Shown here: positions 20,435 to 31,732 of the stretch, in pieces
How the letters are laid out: every line of letters begins with the position of its first letter
Position numbering within the stretch: position 1 is the stretch's first letter
Assembly (NCBI RefSeq): GCF_000373245.1
Contig: NZ_KB890750.1
Location: 424,930-488,929, forward strand
Direction: 5' to 3'
Length of the DNA stretch: 64,000 nucleotides
From: Echinicola pacifica DSM 19836
GTDB taxonomy: Bacteria > Bacteroidota > Bacteroidia > Cytophagales > Cyclobacteriaceae
Position numbers and translations under genes: made by a program
The notes under the pieces: model-generated
Databases searched by the model: none
What the model was told of the DNA's origin: nothing
Seen by the model: only the letters and a program-made list of their open reading frames with translations

Positions 20435-22039
20435 TTAATTCGTAGGAACCTTCACTTCGTCTTTATATTCATGCATTAATTCTATGAGTTTCTCATGCAT
20501 ATTTTCTCGAACTTCCATATAGGCAGCATCCTCATATACATTATTCATTTCCTGAGGATCCATTTCTAAATCGTACAACTCCCATTCATCCACGTCATAG
20601 TAAAAATGGATAAGCTTATACCGATCTGTCCGAATTCCATTATGTCTTTTTACTGCGTGGATTCCTGGATACTCATAATAATGATAATATAAGGCCTTTC
20701 TCCAATCCACTTTTTCACCTTTTAGAAGAGGTACTAAGCTTCTGCCCTGCATTTCTGCGGGGATTTTCACTTGTGCTGCTTCCAGAATGGTCTCTGCAAA
20801 ATCCAGGTTTTGAACCAGCTGACCATTTACAGATCCAGGCTGGGTCACCCCTGGCCATCTTATCAGCAATGGAGTCCTGAAAGACTCCTCATACATAAAG
20901 CGCTTATCAAACCAACCATGCTCTCCTAAATAAAATCCCTGATCGGAGGTATAGATGACGATCGTGTTTTCTGCTAATCCTTCTTCCTCCAAAAAATCCA
21001 ATAAACGTCCCACATTATCATCCACGGAGGCTATGCTGCCGAGGTAGTCCTGCATATAACGCTGATATTTCCAGGAGGTAAGCGCATCTCCCTGAGGGTT
21101 CATCTGCTCAAACTCCTCATTGATAGGGCCATATACCTCATCCCAAGCTGCCCTTGTGGAAGGGTTCATCCGAGCGAGCATTTCATAATAACCGTTTTTA
21201 TACCAATAGATAAAATCCTTATGGCCCAATTTTTCTGCTATTTCAGGATTAATTTTATTATCATAAGTCACCCCCATATGGCTGGAAATCCTCATCTCAG
21301 CCTCCTTAGCGGCAGTACCGCGACCCGCATAGTCATCAAAGAGCGTTGCAGGCTCCGGAAATTCCTTTTGGGTAAATGCTCTGAAATGTTCTTCCTTAGG
21401 GCTCCATTCACGATGGGGAGCTTTATGCTGATACATAAGCATAAAAGGCTTTTTGGACTCTTTATTATCCTTGATCCATTGGATGGAGCGATCGGTAATG
21501 ATGTCGGTCACATACCCAGAATCGACCACAAGACCCTCAGGAGTTCTGAATTCAGGATTATAATAATGCCCCTGATCCGGCAATACCCTCCAATAGTCAA
21601 AACCTGTCGGTTGGGTCTTAAGATGCCATTTCCCTACTATGGCCGTTTGGTAGCCGTTCTCCTGTAATAACTTCGGAAAAGTCATCTGTGTGCTATCAAA
21701 CCGGACCGAATTATCCATCATCCCATTCAAATGGCTATGCTTTCCAGTCAAAATCACCGCTCTGCTGGGAGCGCAAATAGAATTGGTGACATAAGCATGC
21801 TCGAAAAGCATCCCCTCCTCTGCTAGCCGATCTATATTAGGTGTTTGGATCAACTTATCATCATAGGCACTCAAGGCCTGATATGCATGATCATCCGACA
21901 TGATGAAGATAATATTCGGGCGGGAATCCGCCTTATCTTCTTCCTGTTTGGTTTCTCCACAGCTGCTTAGGGCTATCAGCAAAACCAGTGAGTTAAAGGC
22001 GTAGAGCCCTTGGAACCCAGCTAAAGGTGATTTTTTCAT
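20435..22039 (-). CDS. Type I sulfatase lipoprotein
   Basis: The 534-residue protein begins with a lipoprotein signal (lipobox LSSC) and then the sulfatase N-terminal metal motif (PNIIFIMSDDHA). The active-site motif CAPSR has cysteine at about residue 89, the residue converted to formylglycine by a maturase that is not in this window. Further family segments are VGKWHLK, MLMYQHKAPHREW and TSDQGFYLGEHGWFDKRFMYEESFRTPL, plus a C-terminal DUF4976-like part (YYHYYEYPGIHAVKRHNGIRT). It would remove sulfate esters from polysaccharides or glycans at the envelope. No glycosidase gene is adjacent, so the substrate is not known, though the host clearly uses algal or plant glycans. Confidence 0.92.
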   Translation of the reverse strand: MKKSPLAGFQGLYAFNSLVLLIALSSCGETKQEEDKADSRPNIIFIMSDDHAYQALSAYDDKLIQTPNIDRLAEEGMLFEHAYVTNSICAPSRAVILTGKHSHLNGMMDNSVRFDSTQMTFPKLLQENGYQTAIVGKWHLKTQPTGFDYWRVLPDQGHYYNPEFRTPEGLVVDSGYVTDIITDRSIQWIKDNKESKKPFMLMYQHKAPHREWSPKEEHFRAFTQKEFPEPATLFDDYAGRGTAAKEAEMRISSHMGVTYDNKINPEIAEKLGHKDFIYWYKNGYYEMLARMNPSTRAAWDEVYGPINEEFEQMNPQGDALTSWKYQRYMQDYLGSIASVDDNVGRLLDFLEEEGLAENTIVIYTSDQGFYLGEHGWFDKRFMYEESFRTPLLIRWPGVTQPGSVNGQLVQNLDFAETILEAAQVKIPAEMQGRSLVPLLKGEKVDWRKALYYHYYEYPGIHAVKRHNGIRTDRYKLIHFYYDVDEWELYDLEMDPQEMNNVYEDAAYMEVRENMHEKLIELMHEYKDEVKVPTN

Positions 22040-24330: not shown

Positions 24331-25044
24331 TTAGGAGCGTATCAGGGTCATGGTAATCAAGCCCAGAAAAATCGCTATACCAAAACTTAGCAAGGTACCG
24401 ATCAAGACATACTCCGATTTGGAGGCATCTTCATTCTTAAACCTTAGGATAGACTTGGCGGCTATCAAAAAACCTACTGCCTGGAATTCCCCAATAACGA
24501 TAAAAGTAAACACCAATATACGCTCCACCAGTCCGATCAATTTGCCGGCATTGGGAAGGTCCCCGGTTCCGGGCACGCTGATTTCATAGAATTTAAAGAT
24601 CTCTTTGATCAGGATATTGGCAGGTTTCAGGATGAGCATTCCACAGAGAATGACCATGCTCAGCTCCATGGGCCAGATTATAGGAACCCATGGCATCGAA
24701 GGCTTGCCGCTGGCATATATCCAGGTCAGGACTAATATGATCAATAGGTGGAGGTTCTGATCTATAAAGAATGCGTATTTGCCGAGGATACGACTACGAT
24801 TTATATAGGGTTTGGTGCCATCGATTATATAATGAGTGCTGCCTATCAGCAAGGCTACCCACCAAAAAGAGGTCTGAAAGCTCAGCAAAAAAGATAAAGC
24901 GGTAACAATAATAAAGTGGTACTTCAAGAAGGAGCTTCTGAATCCCAGCTGATTTTTCTGATTGGCGAGCCGGTCATTCTGAAAATAATAATCGGCCAGC
25001 GTATGAGCTATAAATTGCGTAATCAACAGGTGTATAAAAGTCAT
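24331..25044 (-). CDS. DUF3307 multi-pass membrane protein
   Basis: The 237-residue protein matches DUF3307, with the N-terminal QFIAHTLADYYFQNDRLANQK segment and STHYIIDGTKPYI. Several hydrophobic segments follow at about 45-75, 90-115, 120-145, 165-190 and 205-235. It belongs in the inner membrane and its function is unknown. Its ATG overlaps the stop of the upstream SatD gene (ATGA, 25041-25044), so the two are translationally coupled. SatD and DUF3307 are neighbours in other Bacteroidota, as I recall. It may be the membrane partner or effector of the SatD protein. Confidence 0.85.
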   Translation of the reverse strand: MTFIHLLITQFIAHTLADYYFQNDRLANQKNQLGFRSSFLKYHFIIVTALSFLLSFQTSFWWVALLIGSTHYIIDGTKPYINRSRILGKYAFFIDQNLHLLIILVLTWIYASGKPSMPWVPIIWPMELSMVILCGMLILKPANILIKEIFKFYEISVPGTGDLPNAGKLIGLVERILVFTFIVIGEFQAVGFLIAAKSILRFKNEDASKSEYVLIGTLLSFGIAIFLGLITMTLIRS

Positions 25045-25736
25045 TTCAGGGCTTGTTTAATTATATTTTTATAGTACTCCACGGACTCCTCAATGGCATT
25101 CCAGCCCAAAGCGGTACTATGTTGGTTGATTACAGACTGGCTTACCCCTAGTTTTTCGGCGATCTCGGTTTCGGTCATTCCCTGCAGCTTAAAATACAAC
25201 ACCTCGGATTGTTTTGCGGTGGCCTTATTGCATAGCACATCCAATAAAGCAAAGTTTGGGGAAAGATGAAAATTTAATTGCTCCTCCTCTGAGACAAAAA
25301 ACGTGGTTTGCTTCAAAACCACTCGTTCCTTATTATGACTTGAATAGGCATTGATCTTCCTGCCAGCCATAAATATCGCTTGGCCATCTATAATATCGTT
25401 TTCTGTATCCAATATCCCCAGCTCCCCATACCCGATGGCCATGCGCAGCCCATGAGTGGAGAAATTCTTCGTTCGTGAATTGTTTTTTTTGACCTTCAGG
25501 TCCAGTGATTTTATATAAGACTTGATTATCAATGCGATCCTCAGAGCCTCAGAAGGTCGCCGACACACACATTCTATATAATCCCCCTTACTGATGCGCG
25601 CATAGCAATCAAAATCCTGCATTAATTTCAATACGAGCTTTTCCAATTGCCCGTAAAGCTCCACTCTTGCCGTCTCGCCTAAACTCGTGGAAGATACAAT
25701 ATCTCCAGAAATCACTGCATATTTTTTCATCCTCAA
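25041..25736 (-). CDS. SatD-family protein: cyclase-like domain plus helix-turn-helix
   Basis: The 231-residue product matches the SatD family: YAVISGDIVSST at the start, KGDYIECVCRRPSEALRIA, HGLRMAIGYGEL and IDGQAIFMAGRKINAYSS. By eye this order copies class III nucleotide cyclases. An Asp in the first strand (D12) and a Gly-Asp (D52) 40 residues later match the two metal Asps, with a G-x-G-E-like strand and then an A-x-R segment (R126). The Asn usually found near that Arg is not present. A C-terminal helix-turn-helix (about 175-215, MTETEIAEKLGVSQSVINQHS) follows. Catalysis is unproven and could be lost. Start ATG 25736 or 25730. Four tandem dyads precede the gene. Confidence 0.85.
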   Translation of the reverse strand: MRMKKYAVISGDIVSSTSLGETARVELYGQLEKLVLKLMQDFDCYARISKGDYIECVCRRPSEALRIALIIKSYIKSLDLKVKKNNSRTKNFSTHGLRMAIGYGELGILDTENDIIDGQAIFMAGRKINAYSSHNKERVVLKQTTFFVSEEEQLNFHLSPNFALLDVLCNKATAKQSEVLYFKLQGMTETEIAEKLGVSQSVINQHSTALGWNAIEESVEYYKNIIKQALK

Positions 25737-25815
25737 TACTAGTTTTGTCCTACACCCATCACAGCTAGAGGTCTGGTAGTCTTATAGGCCTATACCTGTG
25801 CTAATGATGCATAAA

Positions 25816-25922
25816 TATAAGTACTAAAGCTTATATTGACAATATATAAGTTGATAAACTTATAAATAGACATTATAAGCTTTAAAGACTATAAATATAT
25901 ATTATAAGCTAAAGAACTTATA
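25816..25922. repeat. Array of four 20-bp dyads at an exact 29-bp period, upstream of satD
   Basis: Units start at 25816, 25845, 25874 and 25903, each exactly 29 bp apart. Each unit is TATAAG-N8-CTTATA (20 bp); unit three has ACTATA as its right arm. The 9-bp linkers are TTGACAATA, AATAGACAT and AATATATAT and are not conserved. The array ends 80 bp before the SatD start and lies in the 211-bp space between satD and the next gene. The fixed period with dyad symmetry suggests a cooperative operator, perhaps for the SatD helix-turn-helix itself. If transcribed, each unit could also fold as a weak hairpin. Confidence 0.9.
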
Positions 25923-25947: not shown

Positions 25948-26946
25948 TTAGCTAGGGGAGCCGCAGATATCTTCCATGACTTTATTGGTCCGCATTGCTG
26001 ATCGACCGATGGAAGGGCTCAAACCTCTCCCCAGAATATCATCATTAATAAGCTCGATAAGAGGCATTTGAATATGCTTTGGTAAATCAAATTCGAAGAA
26101 TTGGTCTTCTTGGTCGGGCAGACTAAGCACCAACTTCCCTGCACCAAAGGTCTCATAGGAGATAGACCCTTTAGCCCCATAGATGACGGTATGATCGCAG
26201 GCCTCTCCAGCGGAAAAAGACCAGGCGCCAGAACCCATCACTCCGGATTCGAACTGAAAGTGAGCTACCACCATATCTTCTGCGGCATAGGCCCCAGCCT
26301 GATTAGCCACTGCACCGGAAGCAGTGGATATAGGTCCCAGGGCATAATCCAGAAAATCCAACTGATGGGAGGCTAGATCATAAAAATATCCTCCTCCGGC
26401 AAGTGCTGGATTTACGCGCCAATTATCCTGCGGCGCTCCATCTCCCACAGCCGTCATGAGGGGCTGATTCAGAAGAATCTGAACATGGCGGATCTCACCG
26501 ATAACACCTTCCTCGATCAGCTCTTTGATTTTTACAAAATGAGGAAGGGCACGGCGGTAATAGGCCACATAAAGAGGTACATTCGCCTGCTCACAGATAT
26601 GGACCATCTCTAAGCATTCGGCATAGGTCCTCGCCATAGGTTTCTCGACATACACGGGCTTGCCGGCTTCGGCAGCTTTGATCACAAAATCCTTATGCAG
26701 ATGAGGTGGGGTGGCAATATAAATGGCATTCACGCTATCGCTTTGGATCAAGGCATCAGCATCGGTAAACCATTGACTTACACCATGCCTATCGGCATAA
26801 TCTTTCACCTTCGCTTCATCCCTTCGCATCACCGCCACCAGCTCACTATCTGGGAGGAGCTGCATCGCTGGAGCACTCTTCACTTCACAAACATCGCCCA
26901 CGCCGATTACTCCCCAGCGTACAGTATCATCATTTATCTTTTTCAT
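25948..26946 (-). CDS. Gfo/Idh/MocA-family NAD(P)-dependent oxidoreductase
   Basis: The 332-residue protein has the Rossmann motif GVIGVGDVCEVKSAP, the strand segment AIYIATPPHLHKDF, and the catalytic-lysine signature VYVEKPMARTYAE. The C-terminal domain contains GGGYFYDLASHQLDFLDYALG. It lacks a signal peptide and should act in the cytoplasm. It overlaps the upstream dehydrogenase gene by 17 bp and so is co-translated with it. With the YiaK-like enzyme it probably handles a sugar acid released from pectin. Its exact substrate cannot be named. Confidence 0.9.
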   Translation of the reverse strand: MKKINDDTVRWGVIGVGDVCEVKSAPAMQLLPDSELVAVMRRDEAKVKDYADRHGVSQWFTDADALIQSDSVNAIYIATPPHLHKDFVIKAAEAGKPVYVEKPMARTYAECLEMVHICEQANVPLYVAYYRRALPHFVKIKELIEEGVIGEIRHVQILLNQPLMTAVGDGAPQDNWRVNPALAGGGYFYDLASHQLDFLDYALGPISTASGAVANQAGAYAAEDMVVAHFQFESGVMGSGAWSFSAGEACDHTVIYGAKGSISYETFGAGKLVLSLPDQEDQFFEFDLPKHIQMPLIELINDDILGRGLSPSIGRSAMRTNKVMEDICGSPS

Positions 26947-28015: not shown

Positions 28016-29362
28016 TTACCAGTCCACAAGCTCATTTAAGTACACTTCCACATTAGTATAATGCAGAGATAAACCTAAGCCACTGTCATCCGGAAGCTGT
28101 GGATCTAAGCCATGTGCCAGCTCCCAATCATCTGGCATACCATCCCCATCCGAATCCTTCACCGGATTTCCTTCAGGCAATAGCGGCCATCCGCCTACAG
28201 AATTTTGACTGTCTATAATCCCATTATTCTTTGGCCCACCAGGACTGTGCCCCAGGAGAACCTCCTCCACCACTCTGCTATCCACAGGATCACGGAAAAA
28301 ATTTGCCCCTGCATTGGCGAGTACTTTAAGGTAAGCTTCTCTGGCTGACTCCCCGGCAAATTCCGCTACGAAAGGGAAGGCAGTGGCTGCCAAAACCTCC
28401 TCGGGATGGTCGGGCCCGTCCAGACCCTTTGCGTTCTCTAAGCTGACTTCCGGAAAACCCTCGACATCGTTATCCATCAAATAATAATTGCCGTAAGGCG
28501 CATAAGCCTCAAAAATCCTGTCACGATTGGAGGAGGTCGCCGGGCCAGCTTTATAATAATTGCCCACCATATTGATCCGAGCTTCCTCTCCTCCATAGCT
28601 GCTATTCTGTTCCCAGTTATAGATTATATTATTCCTGAAATCCACCAGTTCTGTCATAGGACTGCTCTGCGTTCGGGCTCCATTGAACCGGGGGAGTCTG
28701 CTGGAGTGAGAGGCGATCAGGTTATGGTGGAAACTCGCATTGATTCCACCCCAAATCCCCCCATAGCCATGATTGCCTTTTTCATGTACCGAGGCATTTA
28801 GGCTTTCTGATAGTATGCACCATTGCAAGCTGAAATTTTCATTATCATAAAATGAGCCGCATTCATCCGTGGCCCAGCTCAGGGAACAATGATCAATAAT
28901 TATATTCTTGTTCCTCAAACAAGACATCGCATCATCCTGAACTTTCTTTTCATCCCCCAGCCGGGACCGAATATACCGGATGATGATATTGTCCCCTTTA
29001 ACCTTCAAAGGATAGTTCTTCAGCGTGATCCCGCCCCCAGGAGCCGACTGCCCCGCTATGGTGAGATCGCCATGGTTTATATCCAAACTTGACTGCAATT
29101 CGATTGTTCCGGAAACAGCGAAAAGGATGATTCTTGGCTCCTTTTTCCGCAGAGCTTCCCGAAGGCTTCCAGGTCCCTCATCATTTAGATTGGTGACCTT
29201 ATATATCTTACCTCCACGACCTCCAGAGGTATATTTCCCAAAACCATCCGCTCCCGGAAATGCCAGGACCTGGTCTTCCCCGGAAGAGAATGCCTGGCCT
29301 CGGACCAGTCCCGTACCTGGAAGCATAATTGTCAATAGTAGTAATAGTGGATAGATTTTCAT
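28016..29362 (-). CDS. Polysaccharide lyase family 1 pectate lyase
   Basis: From the ATG at 29362 there is a signal peptide (LLLLLTIMLPGTGLVRG), so the enzyme is exported; upstream ATGs at 29386 and 29410 are alternatives. A PL1 right-handed beta-helix follows. It has FPGADGFGKYTSGGRGGKIY, the Ca-site region IIIDHCSLSWATDECGSFY, and HHNLIASHSSRLPRFNG, whose Arg-x-Pro-Arg holds the catalytic arginine. It cuts polygalacturonate by beta-elimination. The C-terminus carries an acidic calcium-binding stretch, DSDGDGMPDDWELAHGLD, as in thrombospondin-3-like repeats. A second PL1 gene (30245) has the same layout. It lies in the pectin locus. Confidence 0.93.
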   Translation of the reverse strand: MKIYPLLLLLTIMLPGTGLVRGQAFSSGEDQVLAFPGADGFGKYTSGGRGGKIYKVTNLNDEGPGSLREALRKKEPRIILFAVSGTIELQSSLDINHGDLTIAGQSAPGGGITLKNYPLKVKGDNIIIRYIRSRLGDEKKVQDDAMSCLRNKNIIIDHCSLSWATDECGSFYDNENFSLQWCILSESLNASVHEKGNHGYGGIWGGINASFHHNLIASHSSRLPRFNGARTQSSPMTELVDFRNNIIYNWEQNSSYGGEEARINMVGNYYKAGPATSSNRDRIFEAYAPYGNYYLMDNDVEGFPEVSLENAKGLDGPDHPEEVLAATAFPFVAEFAGESAREAYLKVLANAGANFFRDPVDSRVVEEVLLGHSPGGPKNNGIIDSQNSVGGWPLLPEGNPVKDSDGDGMPDDWELAHGLDPQLPDDSGLGLSLHYTNVEVYLNELVDW

Positions 29363-29410
29363 TTTTGCAATTGTTTTATACTTCATTTCTTGCGGATCTT
29401 CATTAGGCAT

Positions 29411-29708
29411 AGCCCATGATATAAGCTAGAAACTAAGCGCAATCCGCTTTAATTATAATATTAGGCTTGATTCAACTTAGCTAAATCAGAATCATAGTCT
29501 TCTAGAGGAAGGTCTGGAAGTAGCATTCCAGCCTTCTCACAGAGAGCTATCTATTCGTAATTTCTCCGGGCTATAAGCCAATTTCTGCTATTCTATTTAC
29601 AGCTTTCGCCTCAAAGAAAAAGCAGACCTGAGCAGAACAGAGAAGTAAATGGGGTTTATTAGGATCAATCAAATCTATCCGACTATTATGGCATTACCCA
29701 CCGATGCT
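29411..29708. other. Intergenic region between lyase and VOC genes
   Basis: About 300 bp without a gene. It contains a hairpin (GAAGG-CTGGAA at 29508-29519 with TTCCAG-CCTTC at 29526-29536) without a T-run, and a half-site GCGCAATC near 29439. I see no promoter consensus. Confidence 0.45.
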
Positions 29709-30098
29709 TTAATCCTTGAGCATGGGTTTGGCGCGTTTACATAACTGCAGGGCAAAGCCCCAGGGATCACGCAGCATCACTAAATGCGAACCGTCTTCCA
29801 GCACATCGTCAGAAATCAATTCTGAGCCAGCAGCGATCAGTCGATCTCTATCCATAGCAGGATCCTCCGAAACCAAAGCCAAATGCACCACCAAAGGATG
29901 CTGCTCCTTGAAGTCCATTATTGGAGCAAGGGGATTATTATAGATTTCTATCATCACATTCCCACTATCATCTGCCAGGAAGGTCATATAGGGAGACTTA
30001 TCCTGTTTTTTGACCACCTTAAATCCCAAATGCTTCTCATACCAATCTGACATGGCGCGTGGCTGGGCTACATTAAGAGCAAAATGTTCAATTTTCAT
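29709..30098 (-). CDS. VOC-family (glyoxalase/dioxygenase fold) protein
   Basis: The 129-residue cytoplasmic protein has the vicinal-oxygen-chelate fold: MKIEHFALNVAQPRAMSDWYEKHLGF at the start, MIEIYNN in the middle, and a C-terminal LRDPWGFALQLCKRA with the usual terminal strand. Family members bind a metal and act on various small molecules, including glyoxalase and dioxygenase substrates. It lies between two pectate lyase genes on the same strand, but its role in pectin use is not evident. Function cannot be named beyond the fold. Confidence 0.85.
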   Translation of the reverse strand: MKIEHFALNVAQPRAMSDWYEKHLGFKVVKKQDKSPYMTFLADDSGNVMIEIYNNPLAPIMDFKEQHPLVVHLALVSEDPAMDRDRLIAAGSELISDDVLEDGSHLVMLRDPWGFALQLCKRAKPMLKD

Positions 30099-30244
30099 AA
30101 ATCACTGTGTTTTGATTAGTAATAATGACCAGTACTTTTCGAACCCTACAGGTTCTATTTGCCAATAATATGAATTTTGTACTAAATCACCTTATTGCAA
30201 AATACATTATTGCTTCTGATCAGAATACTAGCCCGCCAGACCTG

Positions 30245-31732
30245 TCAATTCTTAGGGAAATCCTTAACTAAACCATTCAGATAGACCTCTAACTGGGTAT
30301 AGGGAGTACCAGCCTTGAGAGTACTCCCATCAGTCGGGCTGTTTGGGTCCAACTGATGTGCCTCTTCCCAATCGTCGGGCATTCCATCTCCATCGGTATC
30401 CAGTACGGGAGTACCCGGCTCGAGGAACGGCCATCCTCCTACATCTGATGGGCTATCTATGATACCATTGGTGCTTCCCACGCTCCCAGGGGCGCTATAG
30501 TCAGCATTTTGGACATTGGCGATAATCCGGGCATCGACCGCATCTCTTTTTAGACTTGCTCCAGCCTCAGCCATCACCAATTCATAGGCCGCTTCTGCGG
30601 TATGTGTATGAACGGTATAACCCTCAAGCTGATGAGCTAGCTCCATCCTGATACCCTCTTTTTCCGCAGCTGTCAAGGTGCCATAGCTGCTATGAAACTG
30701 ATTGAAAACACCATACTTCCAGTTGTCGCCAGTGGCTTCGGAACTCCCATGTACCACATTTCCATCTACAAAGAACTTTCCCCAAACGCCGAACACTTCG
30801 GTGCCTTCATTCTTGTTTTTGTCAATGGACATGATGCGATTTCGTTTGCTGCCACCGGGAGTCGCAGGTCCGGGTTTATAATAGCAGTTTACGATATTGA
30901 CATTCATGGCCTCGCCACCGTAAGCCGCATTATTTCCCCAATTATAAATCACATTATTTCTCAAATCCACCAAATCCGTCAAAGCAAAAGCCTTCCCGGC
31001 TTCCTCTCCCAGGCGTGGGTTTCTGCTGTCATGATGAGCAAGGAGATTATGATGGAATGAAGCGTACTTGCCACCCCATATTCCTCCATAGCCATGGGAG
31101 CCCTTTCCATGAACAGAATTCTTAAGACTTTCGGAGATAATACACCATTGTAAGGTGAAGTTTTCATTGGCATAAAAAGACACGCATTCATCTGTGGACC
31201 AGCTCATCGAACAATGGTCAATAATTATATTCTTATGGAACCTTCCTCCTAGAGCATCTCCTTCCTGGCCAGCCTCATCGCCCATTCTAAACCTCAGATA
31301 GCGAATGATGATATTATCTGCATCCACCGTCACTGGATAGTTTTTCAGGGTTATACCCCCGCCAGGCGCGGATTGGCCCGCGATGGTGAGATCACCATTG
31401 GAAATATTCAGTTTTGACTTTAGTTCGATAGTCCCACCAATAGAAAATAATATGGTCCTGGCACCAGCCTGATTAATGGCGTGCCTTAGGGTTCCGGGCG
31501 AATTGTCATCCGTCAATTTACTGACGTAATACACCTTGCCCCCTCTGCCTCCTGAGCTCAGTTGCCCATATCCTTCTGCACCAGGGAAGGCGTAATGAGG
31601 TCCTTCATAGACTTCTTCCTCTTCGGGATCCTGAATATCGGGCTCTTCTTCCGCATTGGAACAGGCATATAGAAGAAGAAAAGTCAAGGCAAAAAGCACA
31701 AAATTATATCGACTTGATAGTTTATAATTCAT
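30245..31732 (-). CDS. Polysaccharide lyase family 1 pectate lyase lipoprotein
   Basis: The 495-residue product has a lipoprotein signal (lipobox LYAC) and an acidic linker (EEEPDIQDPEEEEV) typical of Bacteroidota surface lipoproteins, so it probably sits on the outer face. The PL1 domain has FPGAEGYGQLSSGGRGGKVY, IIIDHCSMSWSTDECVSFY and HHNLLAHHDSRNPRLGE with the catalytic arginine region. It ends in a calcium-binding DTDGDGMPDDWEEAHQLD repeat. It cleaves pectate at the surface to feed the SusCD pair. Its ATG is only 20 bp beyond a hairpin terminator (31753) that follows the susCD-DUF5123 genes. Confidence 0.95.
   Translation of the reverse strand: MNYKLSSRYNFVLFALTFLLLYACSNAEEEPDIQDPEEEEVYEGPHYAFPGAEGYGQLSSGGRGGKVYYVSKLTDDNSPGTLRHAINQAGARTILFSIGGTIELKSKLNISNGDLTIAGQSAPGGGITLKNYPVTVDADNIIIRYLRFRMGDEAGQEGDALGGRFHKNIIIDHCSMSWSTDECVSFYANENFTLQWCIISESLKNSVHGKGSHGYGGIWGGKYASFHHNLLAHHDSRNPRLGEEAGKAFALTDLVDLRNNVIYNWGNNAAYGGEAMNVNIVNCYYKPGPATPGGSKRNRIMSIDKNKNEGTEVFGVWGKFFVDGNVVHGSSEATGDNWKYGVFNQFHSSYGTLTAAEKEGIRMELAHQLEGYTVHTHTAEAAYELVMAEAGASLKRDAVDARIIANVQNADYSAPGSVGSTNGIIDSPSDVGGWPFLEPGTPVLDTDGDGMPDDWEEAHQLDPNSPTDGSTLKAGTPYTQLEVYLNGLVKDFPKN

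Follow-up and report, generated by a model that had tools for sequence, protein, structure and literature searches.

An array of dyads with a 28- or 29-bp period upstream of satD-like genes, and the co-variation of its arms with the SatD recognition helix

The array and the satD–DUF3307 gene pair

We analyzed a stretch of 64,000 nucleotides from Echinicola pacifica DSM 19836 (hereafter, the window), in which an array of inverted-repeat dyads precedes a satD-like gene and its neighbor, a gene for a DUF3307 protein. The features, in window coordinates, are as follows.

24331 to 25044, minus strand: DUF3307 gene, apparently encoding a membrane protein; its start overlaps the satD stop by 4 nt
25041 to 25730, minus strand: satD-like gene (open reading frame, model and structure comparison)
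25812 to 25819, minus strand: candidate -7 box TATATTTA (consensus TAnnTTTG), read from sequence, with TTTA joined to the outer end of dyad 1
25816 to 25835, minus strand: dyad 1, closest to satD, TATAAG-N8-CTTATA, mismatch-free (sequence, with relatives compared)
25840 to 25842, minus strand: candidate -33 element TTG, read from sequence, within the first linker and 20 bp upstream of the -7 box
25845 to 25864, minus strand: dyad 2, arms exact (sequence)
25874 to 25893, minus strand: dyad 3, one arm changed, TATAAG-N8-ACTATA, two mismatches (sequence)
25903 to 25922, minus strand: dyad 4, most distant from satD, arms exact (sequence)
25948 to 26946, minus strand: Gfo/Idh/MocA-type oxidoreductase gene, on the other side of the gap that holds the array

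A pattern search placed the whole array at 25816-25922, with the starts of its four 20-bp dyads exactly 29 bp apart. The initial annotation had described four dyads at an exact 29-bp period with unrelated linkers all 9 bp long, and both statements held: the units at 25816, 25845 and 25903 are mismatch-free and that at 25874 has two mismatches, while each of the three linkers is 9 bp and their sequences differ. Its further claim that neighboring units face different sides of the helix also held, given 10.5 bp per turn of DNA, at which 29 bp corresponds to 2.76 turns. Every exact TATAAG-N8-CTTATA in the window (three of three) belongs to the array, which sits in the 217-bp gap between the oxidoreductase gene and the satD-like gene, 85 bp from the satD start codon. 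The genes on both sides of this gap have the same orientation, and the satD-DUF3307 pair is therefore the natural target of the array. Translations, which were only read, indicate a sulfatase-like gene at 20435-22039 and a pectate-lyase-like gene at 28016-31732 in the surroundings.

Elsewhere in the 5.44-Mb genome such dyads are scarce. The exact dyad occurs at five places, three of them inside the array, and dyads with at most one mismatch are not enriched genome-wide (33, versus 52 for a reversed control pattern). Mismatch-free TATAAG-N23-TATAAG was found three times consecutively in the array and once elsewhere in the whole genome, at a place (L001) consisting of one exact dyad and a single TATAAG 29 bp before it, without a multi-unit array. 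No second array was found in a search limited to TATAAG arms. We considered and rejected a genome-wide TATAAG-dyad regulon, given that isolated dyads are unenriched and that the only other exact 29-bp pair is not multi-unit.

The protein encoded by the satD-like gene gave no match to the Pfam SatD model PF16264 (29-bit cut-off) at E values up to 1; it is called SatD-like because it nevertheless aligned with proteins that do match. A simple search that used only the window protein as query found relatives in genomes G035 (2.5e-16), G031 (1.9e-6) and G011 (4.8e-6). Two of these three proteins, L017 and L019, pass the PF16264 cut-off, as do L150 and the haloarchaeal L252 and L275; the remaining one, L018, scores 24.2 versus 29. 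With the PF16264 family the protein shares the order of an N-terminal domain followed by a helix-turn-helix. The SatD name reportedly derives from an operon of Streptococcus mutans called sat, for secretion and acid tolerance, and a Fusobacterium SatD has merely been annotated as acid-tolerance related (PMC10326533). Neither a SatD operator nor DNA binding by SatD was described in the titles and abstract openings of the open-access literature that we searched.

In a predicted model (pLDDT 88.7), approximately residues 1-165 adopt a class III cyclase-like fold and the C-terminal part a helix-turn-helix, whose recognition helix comprises residues 197-207 (the start Met is not counted in our numbering). 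Foldseek with residues ~1-165 returned 24 PDB chains at E ≤0.001, all described as cyclases, the best being guanylyl/adenylyl cyclases. VIA-align gave Z scores of 9.1-10.4 for the 50 top-ranking entries; a type III-B CRISPR effector complex came first, and cyclases, Cmr2 and GTP cyclohydrolase III reached comparable scores. A search of the PDB with a SatD profile at E up to 1 yielded matches confined to the helix-turn-helix region, the best being RhlR (E 0.007). The N-terminal domain is thus predicted to have a class III nucleotidyl-cyclase fold; its activity is untested. By motif, without superposition, the candidate metal aspartates are D9 (kept in 132 of 133 proteins) and D49 (133 of 133). 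Arg123 is conserved in 94 of 133, whereas position 119, where the transition-state Asn would be expected, holds no Asn among the 132 of 133 residues listed. Because the Asp pair is conserved and the catalytic Asn is not at its expected place, nucleotide sensing appears as likely as catalysis.

Two other affiliations of SatD were tried and not upheld. For membership in a defense system, PADLOC gave only weak matches, between the helix-turn-helix part (residues 165-207) and CARF-linked models, the best at E 1.6e-4. For a phage or viral origin, 50,697 phage records contained no relative when queried with the SatD of L019 (not the window protein), and among viral_contigs 66 pattern matches gave 0 confirmed relatives.

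The DUF3307 protein is modeled as all-helical (pLDDT 92), and its membrane nature is inferred from the sequence and the model. It had no Foldseek match below E 1 and no sequence match in the PDB. In 24 chosen sequences its invariant residues include H14, D18, H43, H71, D75, D95 and H99 (window numbering). These His and Asp residues suggest a possible intramembrane metal site.

Conservation of the array and its relation to the promoter

The initial annotation named as refuting its reading a lack of conservation of period or arms before satD in close relatives, together with an absence of protein binding. The comparative part was carried out with a free search for three dyads with common arms, over periods of 20-40 and unit lengths of 14-26, at a threshold of 31/36. 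Loci came from the search with the window protein, from the best 80 of 264 relatives in another search, from two more searches, one with matches in 136 of 295 genomes and the other in 106 of 395 (at most 30 loci were taken from each), and from 80 more places hand-picked for diversity and two-copy genomes. The 231 usable satD loci reduced to 211 distinct proteins after removal of 20 loci whose protein was identical to that of another, and 210 of these had enough upstream DNA; the rows left out were L066 and L178 (start codon not found) and L219 (97 bp upstream). Start codons were picked by rule. Many loci are closely related, which we countered by using distinct proteins, matching on N-terminal identity, random-column controls and a tree.

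All ten other genomes of the genus have satD (53-60% identity), and nine of them carry a three-unit array of at least 31/36 before it with 20-bp units; the tenth locus (L013) scores 29 with 20-bp units and 33 with another unit length. The genus arrays hold 29 bp, and their arms vary among TATAAG, TATAGG and TATATG. Genome G002 of this genus also carries extra satD-like copies with identical proteins at two places (L212 and L213), possibly a duplicated element; L212 has neither an adjacent DUF3307 gene nor an array. Across the survey, 158 of the 210 distinct upstream regions reach at least 31/36, every one at 28 or 29 bp, as compared with 0/210 dinucleotide shuffles and 2/205 real stretches taken 301-520 bp upstream. 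Without a threshold, 28 or 29 bp was the preferred period in 190 of 210 regions; among the shuffles this held for 22 of 210, and among the control stretches for 10 of 205. About a quarter of the regions (52/210) fall below 31 in the free search, and 61/210 do so when the unit is fixed at 20 bp. Three units are present in 106 of 149 arrays and four in 40; upstream of one satD (L145), seven units follow in a row at exactly 29 bp, the longest among 133 loci.

The gene pair is conserved as well. DUF3307 follows satD in 203 of 209 loci, and also in the Vibrio, Segatella, Salinivibrio, Sphingomonas, Halorientalis and Haloplanus records; for the Natronosalvus satD no partner was identified. The two genes are likely to form one operon. 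Six satD loci lack DUF3307; two of them carry an array, L086 and, solely at a different unit length, L085. In each of four genomes, the first satD copy has both DUF3307 and an array (scores 33-34), and a second copy has neither (22-24). Three of these genomes belong to one genus, and hence only two cases are independent. In another two-copy genome both satD copies are accompanied by DUF3307, with scores of 36 and 29.

Arrays also occur beyond Bacteroidota. In plasmid records, satD is preceded by arms TTAGCC at 28 bp in Vibrio lentus (36/36 with three units), GTAACC at 28 bp in Pseudoalteromonas, and TACAAC at 29 bp in Natronosalvus, while Halorientalis and its near twin Haloplanus have GTTCGC dyads in two pairs at 29 bp, partly identified by reading. 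In Vibrio, Pseudoalteromonas and the two haloarchaeal lineages the centre-to-centre spacing is kept, with 0/100 shuffles as good for each, and the best unit length is tied among 18, 20 and 22 bp in several of these plasmid-record arrays. The Salinivibrio array (L249) is borderline, with 6/100 shuffles as good; the shuffle test did not include L250 and L253, which are related to L249 and L248 and were inspected by reading. A Fusobacterium copy has two weak dyads by eye that are indistinct from shuffles (86/100 as good), and no array was detected before satD in Segatella or Sphingomonas (87/100 and 99/100 shuffles as good). In a Sphingomonas insulae plasmid (L251 1186-2991), the arrayless satD-like and DUF3307 genes lie beside a gene annotated as belonging to the Pycsar system effector family. 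Among Verrucomicrobiota, where 18 of 240 genomes matched and L256-L273 alone were analyzed, two copies have 29-bp TATCG arrays (L085, the same as L256, and L097, the same as L257) and a third (L270) falls just short, with 30/36 at 29 bp. A divergent verrucomicrobial SatD branch (L258-L269), all with DUF3307, has 0/12 loci that reach 31. The period is thus conserved within the genus and across and beyond the phylum; the arms are not conserved and drift within the genus as well.

These data bear on two alternative explanations. The first is that the array represents chance or low-complexity A+T-rich repeats, or RNA hairpins. The arms are indeed A+T-rich in most loci, but no shuffle reached the threshold (0/210), the haloarchaeal arms contain G and C, and the candidate promoter box lies downstream of most of the array. 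We consider this explanation all but excluded. The second is that the array is primarily a platform, that is, a centromere-like site or one that tethers SatD, DNA and DUF3307 to the membrane, with regulation being secondary. Regular dyad arrays are typical of partition sites; moreover, the partner is all-helical and apparently a membrane protein, and some satD copies are on plasmids, where in two cases an 'AAA family ATPase' gene is located nearby. However, the array is located at the satD promoter, the main-survey loci all come from genome assemblies, and no annotated partition gene was present in the annotated plasmid stretches examined. A platform role therefore appears very unlikely.

With respect to the promoter, the Bacteroidota -7 box is TAnnTTTG (PMC9723704). 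The outer end of dyad 1 forms part of the window's candidate box, which deviates from this consensus at its final base. As for a multi-site operator, the array lies just upstream of the gene of its putative regulator and near this box: TAnnTTTG starts at -4 to +8 of the end of the proximal dyad in 53 of 149 arrays (background expectation ~1.8), at -4 or -2 in 28 and at +5 to +8 in 25. No mapped transcripts support these placements. The looser TAnnTTT[AG] occurs at the proximal dyad in 67 of 149 arrays, and the strict box is absent from the examined range in 86 of 149. In 9 of the 53 relatives with the -7 box, a TTG precedes the box at a distance of 20 bp, as compared with ~1.3 expected from background. 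The distance from proximal dyad to start codon has a median of 25 bp and is at most 45 bp in 130 of 149 loci, so the window's 85 bp is unusually far. At four 28-bp loci (L019, L118, L121 and L124) 8-11 bp separate the array from the start codon; their messages may be very short or leaderless, a possibility inferred only from the sequence.

Repression is our leading reading because binding at the proximal dyad would place a protein directly at the core promoter or next to it. Alternatively, SatD on the array could activate, or switch between activation and repression, acting from the distal dyads in the manner of a class II activator. The distal dyads do lie upstream of the core promoter, and arrays of three units (106 of 149) or four (40) are common. 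Against this, the proximal dyad and the -7 box overlap or adjoin each other (53/149 strict, 67/149 with the looser form), and a protein bound at a -7 box usually blocks polymerase. Activation is thus unlikely, although it is the strongest of the alternatives that we considered.

Arm letters and the recognition helix of SatD

Co-variation was examined only with arrays scoring at least 31 (149 of 210), or at least 30 (157) for mutual information. The 149 arrays contain 32 distinct arms, with a near-constant TAT at positions 1-3 and variable letters at positions 4-6. The choice of phase slightly favors arms that start with T followed by A, G or T, so the near-constancy of TAT stems in part from the method, which exerts no such pull on positions 4-6. 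When changes were counted on a tree built from the N-terminal domains of the 149 loci, at least 62 arm changes contrasted with 7 period changes, and the period of the array is therefore steadier than its letters.

Mutual information between SatD residues and arm letters peaks for residue 202 with arm positions 6 and 4, followed by residue 199 with positions 5 and 4. All of these peaks exceed the highest value among 156 N-terminal residues (0.50); for the last two, at 0.52 and 0.51, the margin is narrow. After relatedness was removed by partial correlation, residue 202 ranked first of 197 columns in the complete set of 149 arrays and in both period subsets (78 arrays at 29 bp and 71 at 28 bp). 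In all three sets, the triplet of residues 198, 199 and 202 beat 2000 of 2000 random triplets from outside residues 195-207. In the 29-bp subset the lead of the triplet is small (0.308 versus a random maximum of 0.282), and residue 198 ranks 50th. The three residues were chosen from the same data, and the random triplets and two period subsets serve as controls. Given N-terminal identity, the partial correlation of the triplet with arm identity is 0.41 (0/500 permutations); when all three predictors are entered, the rest of the helix-turn-helix region contributes 0.001 and the N-terminal domain 0.06. Among pairs with 20-30% N-terminal identity, arm positions 3-6 agree at 85% when all three residues are shared (54 pairs), as compared with 39% when none is (3095 pairs).

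Individual pairings follow the same pattern. At residue 202, Lys goes with C at arm position 6 (8/8), Glu with C at position 4 (25/27) and Gln with G at position 6 (56/61). Flavobacterial relatives with an identical GIGQSAVN-x-HSTSVGWNAI helix have TATTAG arms when the x is Q (TATAAG in L047 and L059) and TATGTG when it is R (L028, L029, L031 and L032). As an exception, L016, with R at 202 and a weak TATACC array, does not follow the simple rule. A sign test on the tree, pairing R or K at 202 with C at 6 or G at 4, gave a mean of 4.8 of 5 pairs in favor and none opposed (p ~0.06); two other codings were weak (2.7 for and 0.7 against of 5; 2.5 for and 1.2 against of 7). The tree-based tests agree in direction, but the independent pairs are too few for significance.

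Because the arm letters follow residue 202 in the recognition helix of the neighboring SatD, binding of the array by SatD itself is very likely, although this is inferred from co-variation without physical binding data. It remains conceivable that some other conserved regulator binds the array, since the link to SatD rests on sequence evidence alone. However, the arms follow the recognition-helix residues of SatD, and array and satD co-occur across phyla, making a different regulator very unlikely. The initial annotation had suggested cooperative binding by a dimer, most simply through the helix-turn-helix of SatD or a related regulator. For SatD itself, this is supported by the co-variation with residues 202, 199 and 198. 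That binding is dimeric and cooperative remains an inference, with no physical data on either binding or cooperativity.

Proposed mechanism and comparison with known systems

We propose that the array is likely to be the self-operator of an autorepressing satD-DUF3307 operon, a proposal made without binding or transcript data. Also weighing against it are the upstream regions below threshold, the small number of independent pairs in the tree-based tests, the small lead of the triplet in the 29-bp subset, the satD loci with an array and no DUF3307, the arrays lacking a strict -7 box, the long distance to the start codon and the non-consensus box in the window, and the arrayless verrucomicrobial branch. 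The array, its conservation, its co-variation with SatD, the gene pair and the promoter overlap are shown by sequence, whereas dimer binding, cooperativity, repression and ligand control are inferred. Each 20-bp dyad would be bound by one SatD dimer, with residues 198, 199 and 202 of the recognition helix reading arm positions 4-6 within the near-constant TAT frame. Half-sites lie 14 bp apart within a unit and the next unit follows at +28 or +29 bp, giving half-site steps of 14/14 or 14/15 bp. With a helical repeat of 10.5 bp, 14 bp is a full turn plus one third, so successive SatD subunits would wind around the DNA. Adjacent dimers on successive faces would then form a nucleoprotein coil over the promoter. 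In such a coil, protein-protein contacts would set the spacing and helix residues the letters, which would leave a constant lattice with changing arms. An occupied proximal dyad would block RNA polymerase, resulting in negative autoregulation with a steep, cooperative response, and the cyclase-fold domain would probably act as the sensor through which the complex is loosened or tightened.

A bolder reading, which we consider possible but less likely than not, joins three ideas. The two genes would be an ancient signaling unit of bacteria and haloarchaea built on a SatD coil with a fixed 28/29-bp lattice; binding or turnover of a nucleotide at the cyclase-like interface would open or close the coil and so set the level of the membrane enzyme; and lineages would re-key the lattice through the three recognition residues, producing many mutually non-reacting regulator-operator pairs.

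The proposed self-operator offers a first testable role for a widespread, uncharacterized gene pair, with SatD as a putative autoregulator that has a cyclase-like sensor and controls DUF3307. Constant spacing with changing letters makes it a clean case of operator-regulator co-evolution: the 149 pairs of operator and recognition helix make a recognition code readable, and cooperation at a spacing of non-integral turns can be tested. The array also marks promoters, making operon regulation predictable in many genomes.

Comparison with known systems shows partial resemblances. With class III cyclases and palm folds such as Cmr2 and GTP cyclohydrolase III, SatD shares the predicted fold, which in SatD is fused to a DNA-binding part. 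We also compared SatD with the mclx cyclase and LuxR-type regulators of Mycobacterium tuberculosis (PMC4452763). The mclx proteins, like SatD, have a cyclase-homology domain and a helix-turn-helix in one chain; they are much larger and have an ATPase part, and to our knowledge no operator array is common to them and SatD. The AbiEi antitoxin binds an inverted-repeat self-operator cooperatively (PMC7319586), and an inverted-repeat operator is common to both systems. Unlike AbiEi, SatD contains a cyclase-like domain and is paired with what appears to be a membrane protein, and its array keeps a centre-to-centre spacing of 28 or 29 bp across phyla while the arms change.
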